Assembly: GCF_000214705.1 (NCBI RefSeq)
Contig: NC_015573.1
Location: 1,946,911-2,010,910, forward strand
Origin: Desulfofundulus kuznetsovii DSM 6115
GTDB taxonomy: Bacteria > Bacillota > Desulfotomaculia > Desulfotomaculales > Desulfovirgulaceae
Direction: 5' to 3'
DNA length: 64,000 bases
Within the stretch, counting starts at the first letter, position 1; every line of letters begins with the position of its first letter. Shown here piece by piece: positions 37,285 through 51,301 of the stretch. The notes under the pieces were generated by a model. That model did no database searches, was not told the origin of the DNA, and was given only the letters and a program-made list of their open reading frames with translations. Made by a program: the position numbers and the translations under genes.

Positions 37285-37518
37285 TCAAATCCCATTTCCC
37301 GCTTCAGCCGTACCATCTTGAAAATTTCCCGGCCTAGCTGGCGCAAAGCCTCCCCATCAAAGTCCACGAGTTTATGACCCCCAGGGTACTATGCCCTCTG
37401 CTGTCTCCTGCCGGTTCAGCCGTGCCTCTCGACACGGGTTACCCAGCACTCAGTTGCCTGAGTGCTAGGCTTATCCGGTAGGCCTCCCCGAATTTCATTG
37501 ACAGGACAGATTTTGCGG
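37285..37518. other. Unassigned insert sequence between sigK part 1 and the toxin-antitoxin genes
   Basis: No supported gene. It holds a perfect 9-bp hairpin (AGCACTCAG 37445-37453, CTGAGTGCT 37458-37466, loop TTGC). A minus-strand frame over 37182-37367 has no ribosome site and no recognised family. Probably debris from the event that interrupted sigK. Confidence 0.4.
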
Positions 37519-50286: not shown

Positions 50287-50388
50287 CTTTAAGGAAATCC
50301 CGACTATGGTGTGCATATAATTTATCCCAGGCTCAAAAAATAGAATTACCCGCAGGGGAAAAATCTATCCACCGGGAGGTATTGTAAA

Positions 50389-50625
50389 GTGACTGCGGAA
50401 CCCGTAACGGTGTATACCACCCCCACCTGACCTCACTGTCGCACGGTGAAAGAGTTTCTTTCCCAAAAAGGCATTAAATTTACCGAGAAGAATGTGGCCG
50501 AGGACGAACTGGCCCGCAGTGAAATGGTGCGTAAAACCGGACGCCTGGCCGTGCCCACCATTACCGTGGGAGAACGGGTAGTGGTAGGGTTTAACCGGGG
50601 TGAACTGGAAAGGTTGTTGCATTAA
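50389..50625 (+). CDS. Glutaredoxin-like selenoprotein (Sec at active site, UPHC)
   Basis: Not a conventional frame, because it contains UGA at 50428-50430. Read through, GTG 50389 (GGGAGG nine bases upstream) gives 78 residues: VTAEPVTVYTTPT-U-PHC, then RTVKEFLSQKGIKFTEKNVA, GRLAVPTITVGERVVVGFNR GELERLLH. This is a full glutaredoxin/NrdH-type thioredoxin fold: beta strand before the active site, cis-Pro in AVPTITVG, and the GFNRGELERLL C-terminus. The UGA takes exactly the place of the first active-site Cys of CPHC. A hairpin with the layout of a bacterial SECIS follows. It would be a fast thiol oxidoreductase in the cytoplasm. Neighbours are thioredoxin, a zinc-ribbon protein and a ferredoxin on the other strand. 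Confidence 0.85.
50445..50464 (+). promoter_or_regulatory. Candidate bacterial SECIS hairpin
   Basis: Counting from the base after UGA, nucleotides 15-34 fold as GG-U-GAAAG / loop AGUUU / CUUUC-CC. This is a 7-bp stem with U17 bulged out and G24-U25 in the five-base apical loop. The E. coli fdhF SECIS likewise has a bulged U at position 17 and a GU in the loop that contact SelB. This placement is hard to explain by chance. Confidence 0.7.
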
Positions 50626-50638
50626 ATGCAGGGAAAAA

Positions 50639-50691
50639 TGGCGGTGACCATCCATCCAGCGGCAGGCATCCCGCATGACAGGTCACCGCCA
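50639..50691. terminator. Bidirectional terminator between Sec-glutaredoxin and thioredoxin genes
   Basis: An 11-bp perfect stem (TGGCGGTGACC 50639-50649, GGTCACCGCCA 50681-50691) with a 31-base loop. The minus strand continues with TTTTTCCC, the + strand with TTCCGGCTTT. It lies between two convergent genes. Confidence 0.75.
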
Positions 50692-50718: not shown

Positions 50719-51036
50719 CTACAGCAGGCTTTCAAGCCTTTTAGCAAGGACCCCCTTGGGAGTATAGCCGACCATCTGGCCCACCACCTGTCCGGCCTTA
50801 AACATAATTAACGTGGGAATGCTCATGACACCGTAACGGCCGGCCAGGGCCCGGTTTTGATCCACGTTTACCTTGGCCACCTTTACCCGGCCGGCAAATT
50901 CGGCGGCCAGTTCATCAATAATGGGAGCCATACTGCGGCAGGGACCGCACCAGGGCGCCCAGAAATCCACCAGTACCGGCAGGCTGGATTGTAAAACTTC
51001 GCTGTCAAAATTGCTTTCATTTAATTCCAGGGCCAT
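50719..51036 (-). CDS. trxA: Thioredoxin
   Basis: 105 residues with the active site [13 protein letters not shown] (Cys30, Cys33), cis-Pro in [12 protein letters not shown] and C-terminal [16 protein letters not shown] general protein-disulfide reductant. Start ATG 51036. Convergent with the Sec-glutaredoxin gene. Confidence 0.95.
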
Positions 51037-51103: not shown

Positions 51104-51301
51104 TCACCCACCAGCCGAACCAAAACTGCTTTGCCCGCCGCCGCAACTGCCGCCCTTTATGCGAACGGCACAGCCGGTAATCAGCTGGCGTACCTCCCGG
51201 CTCTGGCACTGGGGACAGGCAACCTTGTCCCGGTCATCAACCCCCACCAGCAGGGTAAATTTGTGGCCGCAGCTGTTGCACTGGAAATCGTAGATAGGCA
51301 T
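51104..51301 (-). CDS. FmdB-type zinc-ribbon protein
   Basis: 65 residues: MPIYDFQCNSCGHKFTLLVG, then CPQCQSREVRQLITGCAVRI KGGSCGGG. Two CxxC pairs form a single zinc ribbon as in the FmdB/CxxC_CXXC_SSSS family, and the glycine/serine-rich tail is typical. Regulatory role has been proposed for family members but is not demonstrated. Confidence 0.9.
   Translation of the reverse strand: MPIYDFQCNSCGHKFTLLVGVDDRDKVACPQCQSREVRQLITGCAVRIKGGSCGGGQSSFGSAGG

Follow-up and report, generated by a model that had tools for sequence, protein, structure and literature searches.

The forward-strand interval 50389–50625 of the analysed window, a 64,000-nt stretch of the Desulfofundulus kuznetsovii DSM 6115 genome, almost certainly carries a functional selenoprotein gene. 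The predicted product is a YruB-type glutaredoxin, and we infer selenocysteine (Sec) at its residue 14 from the reading frame, the conservation of the codon, a recoding hairpin and the Sec machinery of the genome (a single contig of 3,601,386 bases, here labelled G000). The initial annotation had read this locus as a Sec glutaredoxin gene, a reading supported by the conserved UGA, by a hairpin beyond coding need and by the Sec machinery. The selenocysteine glutaredoxin as a kind is already in print, and the gene described here adds a member to it.

Gene Structure and Family Assignment

The gene opens with a GTG codon, 9 bases downstream of the ribosome-binding sequence GGGAGG (50374–50379, forward strand), and closes with TAA at 50623–50625. 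With the in-frame TGA at 50428–50430 (forward strand, codon 14) translated as a residue, the frame yields 78 residues with the motif TPT-U-PHC, and no stop other than this TGA precedes the TAA. The predicted Sec opens the active site UPHC; the second active-site residue, Cys17, is encoded at 50437–50439 (forward strand) and is conserved as Cys in all 73 distinct TGA sequences, a set that excludes the two UPYT genes L087 and L088. Translation and profile matches therefore bear out the earlier description of a 78-residue glutaredoxin broken only by UGA at codon 14, and the second cysteine is retained as described. In the six relatives examined for their start, the codon is GTG in four and ATG in two, with GGAGG upstream at about the same spacing in each.

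With Cys placed at codon 14, the translation matched the Pfam glutaredoxin family PF00462 with 68 bits (gathering cut-off 22.9) over all 60 profile positions. The NCBIfam profile TIGR02196 (glutaredoxin-like YruB family) was passed narrowly, with 89.6 bits against a curated cut-off of 88.55. Membership in the UXX-star group was rejected, since the score for NF041212 (63.9 bits) lies under its curated cut-off of 66; NF041212 and its kin are also small glutaredoxin-like (seleno)proteins, but the D. kuznetsovii protein keeps the second cysteine. The nearest solved chain is 7c10, called a glutaredoxin, which aligned with 82 bits across residues 3–77 and carries a CPHC motif.

Comparison with six relatives, from the genus and including the nearest relative, gave 8–36 synonymous versus 3–7 non-synonymous codon differences per relative, and in these six pairwise comparisons the changes within the glutaredoxin frame fall mostly at third positions. 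Judged from these alignments, the sense frame is under purifying selection.

Conservation of the UGA Codon and Exchange with Cysteine

A homologue search across 120 genomes, the source genome included, found homologues in 90 of them. Sixty-one matches in 55 genomes contained one TGA, and in 61 of 61 it aligned with codon 14. These 55 genomes comprise all nine of the source family, 44 more of the same order and two of the same phylum. Two one-TGA matches each were present in G015, G091, G101 and G117, and three in G109. Matches without TGA were fetched in part: 19 cover codon 14, with Cys in 15 and Lys in four (distant paralogues), and two others (L064 and L089) fall outside the codon. One of the Cys homologues, L028 from genome G094, is 75% identical to the source protein and has TGT at codon 14. 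The exchange between UGA and Cys that the initial annotation proposed to look for is thus present, with TGA at the same codon in every one-TGA homologue and a Cys codon in others, and the locus shows UGA at a redox residue with Cys in homologues, as looked for in bacterial selenoproteins.

A second set of named genomes, which overlaps the 120-genome set in species, was scanned by peptide patterns. Of at least 448 relatives, the 80 best were kept; they gave 81 rows, namely 34 with TGA, 46 with Cys and one with TCA, proportions that do not amount to a census. The homologue search of viral contigs gave three distant matches.

Recoding Hairpin

A predicted SECIS hairpin lies within the coding region at 50445–50464 (forward strand), 15–34 bases past the UGA. 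The minimum-energy fold of this segment is GG-U-GAAAGA/GUU/UCUUUCCC, in which the U at base 17 past the UGA (50447) is left unpaired and GUU at 50454–50456 forms the apical loop. The available portion of PMC1088965 gives the bacterial SECIS hairpin criterion applied here, a small apical loop containing a G, and the source locus has such a loop in a hairpin just 3' of the UGA.

By folding energy alone the hairpin is weak. The 48-nt fold of the source locus had a z-score of −0.79, with 35 of 200 dinucleotide shuffles folding equally well, and the 26-nt fold a z-score of −1.96 (10 of 200). An Rfam scan over the 64-kb window gave no SECIS match; its sole match was group-II-D1D4-1, a piece of a group II intron at 37347–37441 on the reverse strand (42.3 bits).

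Since folding energy alone was insufficient as proof of the hairpin, we used a synonymous-codon control, in which the 14 codons past the UGA were recoded at random with local-usage weights and the 24-base hairpin region was refolded. Compared with random synonymous coding of the same peptide (VKEFLS), the source locus reached a p of 0.020. In the 120-genome set, from which L085, L087, L088 and four Lys-codon rows were excluded for this control, p ≤ 0.05 was reached by 44 of 47 TGA loci with at least 60% identity and by 8 of 12 more distant TGA loci (leaving three and four, respectively, short of the threshold), versus 2 of 14 Cys loci. Among the best 80 of at least 448 relatives in named genomes, the corresponding counts were 28 of 34 TGA and 5 of 46 Cys rows; one of these five, L118 from Pelotomaculum sp. 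PtaU1.Bin035, is the same gene as L028. By this control, the hairpin of the TGA genes is in excess of what the peptide requires.

Pairing was then compared in a merged set of distinct sequences from the 120-genome loci and the best 80 of at least 448 relatives, comprising 73 TGA sequences (L087 and L088 excluded) and 60 Cys sequences. The full set of six inner pairs is present in 59 of 73 TGA sequences versus one of 60 Cys sequences, which is L028; in 57 of the 60 Cys sequences the hairpin is absent or mismatched, with fewer than five of the six pairs. Most Cys homologues stand farther from the source protein, with 57 of 60 below 60% identity to it versus 25 of 73 TGA sequences, and the comparison was therefore made inside identity bands. 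At 50–60% identity, the six inner pairs are complete in 14 of 14 TGA versus none of 20 Cys sequences. At 40–50%, the complete set forms in 4 of 10 TGA versus none of 33 Cys sequences, and at least five pairs form in 7 of 10 versus 2 of 33. The loop opens with GU in 70 of 73 TGA sequences. For its opening Glu codon, the TGA set uses GAG 66 times and GAA not once, whereas the Cys set uses GAG in 6 sequences and GAA in 15. No compensatory pair changes were seen in the stem across the merged set; the changes observed are one-sided (e.g., A-U to G-U), together with some mismatches.

The SECIS of E. coli fdhF is a hairpin a short distance past the UGA; its small apical loop contains G and U, and one stem U is left unpaired. 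The initial annotation had likened the locus to this element, placing a hairpin at bases 15–34 with a bulged U17 and GU in the loop. All of this holds at the source locus, but the bulged U17 is not conserved among relatives: of the 73 distinct TGA sequences, 16 allow the bulged arrangement and 43 a fully paired one in which this base can pair, and 9 have C at this position. The bulged U17 was consequently rejected as a defining feature. As a whole, codon 14, the hairpin and the frame are all kept among homologues, contrary to the loss of codon and hairpin in a decaying frame that had been named in advance as the outcome speaking against a selenoprotein.

Selenocysteine Machinery

The earlier reading called for a search of selA, selB, selC and selD, and all four are present in the source genome. 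The selB gene matched with 377 bits and is directly adjoined, in the same direction, by selA, which was named by sequence and position without a profile search. The tRNA-Sec (selC) scored 74.8 bits in Rfam and has the anticodon UCA according to ARAGORN; the four other above-threshold Rfam matches were rejected as ordinary tRNAs by ARAGORN. The joint absence of selB and selC, which would have spoken against the gene, is thus not what the genome shows. The selD gene (L108, G000:C1:2621043-2621966; 399 bits) contains one in-frame TGA of its own in a UAAK motif, which fits the UxxK motif given for selenophosphate synthetase in the accessible part of PMC13188914. The genome therefore encodes at least one further likely selenoprotein, as selD itself is probably one on the strength of this motif.

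At E ≤ 1e-60, selB was found in 115 of 120 genomes; among the 55 genomes that have a one-TGA glutaredoxin it was found in 54, and among the 65 others in 61. In G053, one of the 54, selB scored under the curated cut-off; the exception is G069, a genome 84% complete with a TGA copy, which gave no selB match at this threshold. Because selB is nearly universal in the group, its presence is necessary but does not discriminate.

Alternative Explanations

A single in-frame stop in an otherwise normal gene is also what a decaying glutaredoxin gene would look like, with the UGA as a nonsense mutation or a sequencing error, and decayed-looking copies do occur in some relatives (L064 and L089). Yet the same TGA recurs in 61 homologues of 55 genomes with the downstream frame intact, this downstream frame is under purifying selection, and the hairpin goes beyond coding need; we regard decay or error as extremely unlikely. 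Suppression or near-cognate readthrough that would place another amino acid (Trp or Cys) at the UGA is likewise very unlikely. Protein evidence alone cannot separate Sec from Cys, and homologues do carry Cys at this position, but this explanation stands against a complete Sec system, in which tRNA-Sec has the anticodon UCA and selD itself contains an in-frame UGA, and against a hairpin of SelB-binding type whose six inner pairs are complete in 59 of 73 TGA versus one of 60 Cys sequences.

The third possibility is that the real gene lies on the other strand and the glutaredoxin frame is its by-product. An overlapping antisense ORF of 103 amino acids (50365–50676, reverse strand) is the longer uninterrupted frame, and in an ungapped comparison it is open in three of six relatives. 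In the other three it has an in-frame stop, mid-frame in L016; it gave no Pfam match, and it is the sense frame that belongs to a recognised family and changes mostly at its own third codon positions. The antisense ORF is very likely not a gene, and the chance that it is the real one, with the selenoprotein frame as a by-product, is practically negligible. The Sec glutaredoxin gene remains by far the preferred reading.

Gene Neighbourhood

The initial annotation also mentioned a convergent thioredoxin and a nearby ferredoxin and zinc ribbon, and all were found as stated. The thioredoxin gene lies at 50719–51036 on the reverse strand (Pfam Thioredoxin, 113 bits), and beyond it is a 4Fe-4S ferredoxin gene; between the two, at 51104–51301, is a small zinc-ribbon-like ORF, named by eye. 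A scan of 44 loci, which include some duplicates of one genomic site and many sequences that end before the more distant genes, counted the following convergent downstream genes: thioredoxin 15, zinc-ribbon ORF 15, ferredoxin 16, HTH protein 19, penicillin-binding protein 22, U32 peptidase 14 and MltG 13. One of the 15 thioredoxins (L132) is only 27% identical and lies 6 kb off. All these scanned neighbours sit on the strand opposite to the glutaredoxin gene, and the co-directional neighbours in other genomes are, by eye, unrelated-looking housekeeping genes. Across the 44 loci, the gene neighbours named no partner that would point to a client; the convergent thioredoxin may possibly share one redox network with the glutaredoxin.

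Evolution of Residue 14 and Divergent Copies

A tree was built from 123 rows (72 Sec, 50 Cys and one Ser), excluding 14 long-branch or distant-paralogue loci as well as short and duplicate rows. On this tree, which rests on few columns and has an unsettled bootstrap, the distribution of Sec, Cys and Ser needs at least eight changes versus about 40 with shuffled labels, and the well-supported branches of this rough reconstruction force at least four changes for Sec. On these counts, the residue-14 character is clustered and has nevertheless changed several times.

In L028 (positions 1501–1725; genome G094), TGT stands in place of TGA, the protein is 75% identical and all six inner pairs still form, while the genome contains selB; it is apparently a recent change from Sec to Cys with a relict SECIS. 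L067 (CSHC) is similar, with TGT for TGA and five of the six inner pairs kept. These are the two of 14 Cys loci with p ≤ 0.05 in the synonymous control, and by their sequences they look like former UGA genes, a hairpin kept in full or for the most part being expected of recent Sec-to-Cys changes. As G094 still has selB alongside its Cys copy, the exchange of selenocysteine in this genome apparently left the Sec trait in place. Among the best 80 of at least 448 relatives, L171 from a Chloroflexi MAG has TCA (Ser) at the residue-14 codon, with the hairpin still formed (p 0.033), and represents either a Sec-to-Ser change or a sequencing error.

Several divergent copies were also recorded. L087 (G067) and L088 (G059) are distant glutaredoxin-like genes with a UPYT motif, in which TGA is kept and Thr replaces the second Cys. 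L086 (G117) is a divergent TGA copy with UKVC, about two extra residues ahead of Sec and an intact hairpin. The source genome has a glutaredoxin-like paralogue with a CDNC motif (L002, G000:C1:1285103-1285309), and in four relatives (L081–L084, genus g14) it has Lys instead of the first active-site Cys. In L064 (G008:C86) and L089 (G066:C126), the alignable part lacks the active site and one of them has an in-frame TAA; both are apparently decayed duplicates.

Relation to Known Selenoproteins and Proposed Function

A Sec glutaredoxin of the same family and UxxC motif as the source protein is known from selenoproteome surveys. In the parts of these sources available to us, it is listed as experimentally verified (PF00462, UxxC; PMC13188914), recorded in the Sargasso Sea set (PMC1088965) and reported for Moorella thermoacetica, Alkaliphilus metalliredigenes and Geobacter sulfurreducens (PMC1794560). 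The Desulfotomaculum reducens row in the available portion of PMC1794560 gives eight selenoproteins and no glutaredoxin, whereas we found a TGA copy in all nine genomes of the source family that were searched. A limited literature search, covering publications available in part, found none naming a Sec glutaredoxin in Desulfofundulus.

The chains 7c10, 7c12 and 7c13 are presumably those of cGrx1 from Clostridium (Alkaliphilus) oremlandii. The source protein resembles cGrx1 in its U/CPXC site, in addition to the alignment of 7c10 with residues 3–77. The accessible text of PMC7642778 describes cGrx1, whose active site reads U(or C)PXC, as a native selenoprotein and proposes that it reduces its host's selenoprotein MsrA. 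The same portion describes glutaredoxins of this type as reduced by glutathione: in the general cycle, the attack comes from the first residue of the site, the second acts as the resolving residue, and the bond is finally reduced by glutathione.

In the proposed mechanism, SelB carrying Sec-tRNA(UCA) would bind the hairpin that begins 15 bases past the UGA during translation, and selenocysteine would be inserted at residue 14; the product would be a thioredoxin-fold redoxin of 78 residues whose active site is UPHC. By analogy with cGrx1, the Sec14 selenolate would attack an oxidised client, and Cys17 would resolve the mixed bond, forming an intramolecular selenenylsulfide with Sec14.

The partners in this cycle probably differ from those of cGrx1, since neither MsrA nor the two searched glutamate-cysteine ligase families matched in the source genome. 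MsrA (PF01625), the proposed client in the cGrx1 host, gave no match here, while a control search found it in 12 of 14 genomes; as it was not found, the client is not MsrA. The ligase families PF04107 and PF04262 likewise gave no match in the source genome, with control matches in 5 of 14 and 2 of 14 genomes, respectively. The genome has one thioredoxin reductase above the cut-off (G000:C1:1456927-1457823) and a related flavoprotein below it. Because of this enzyme and the missing match to the two searched ligase families, thioredoxin reductase (or thioredoxin) is favoured over glutathione as the electron donor, a guess from gene content that we give an even chance of being right. The glutathione reduction described for cGrx1-type glutaredoxins in the available text of PMC7642778 would, by analogy, count against it.

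As a tentative picture, with somewhat less than an even chance of being correct as a whole, the Desulfotomaculum relatives may possess an old, mostly vertically inherited selenoredoxin that operates without glutathione, is reduced by thioredoxin reductase and serves a selenium-demanding client other than MsrA. Their lineage might then form a natural series of Sec-to-Cys replacements (once perhaps Sec-to-Ser), in at least one of which (L028 in G094) selB and the hairpin are kept.

Overall, sulfate reducers of this group and their relatives gain a well-supported selenoprotein, with a recoding hairpin kept beyond the protein's needs where the codon is UGA and absent or mismatched in 57 of 60 distinct Cys sequences. 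With no match for MsrA or the two searched ligases in the genome, the question of which reductant and client this Sec redoxin has becomes a testable one. Cys copies in selB-bearing genomes, such as L028 in G094, are natural tests of the reasons for retaining or abandoning selenium.
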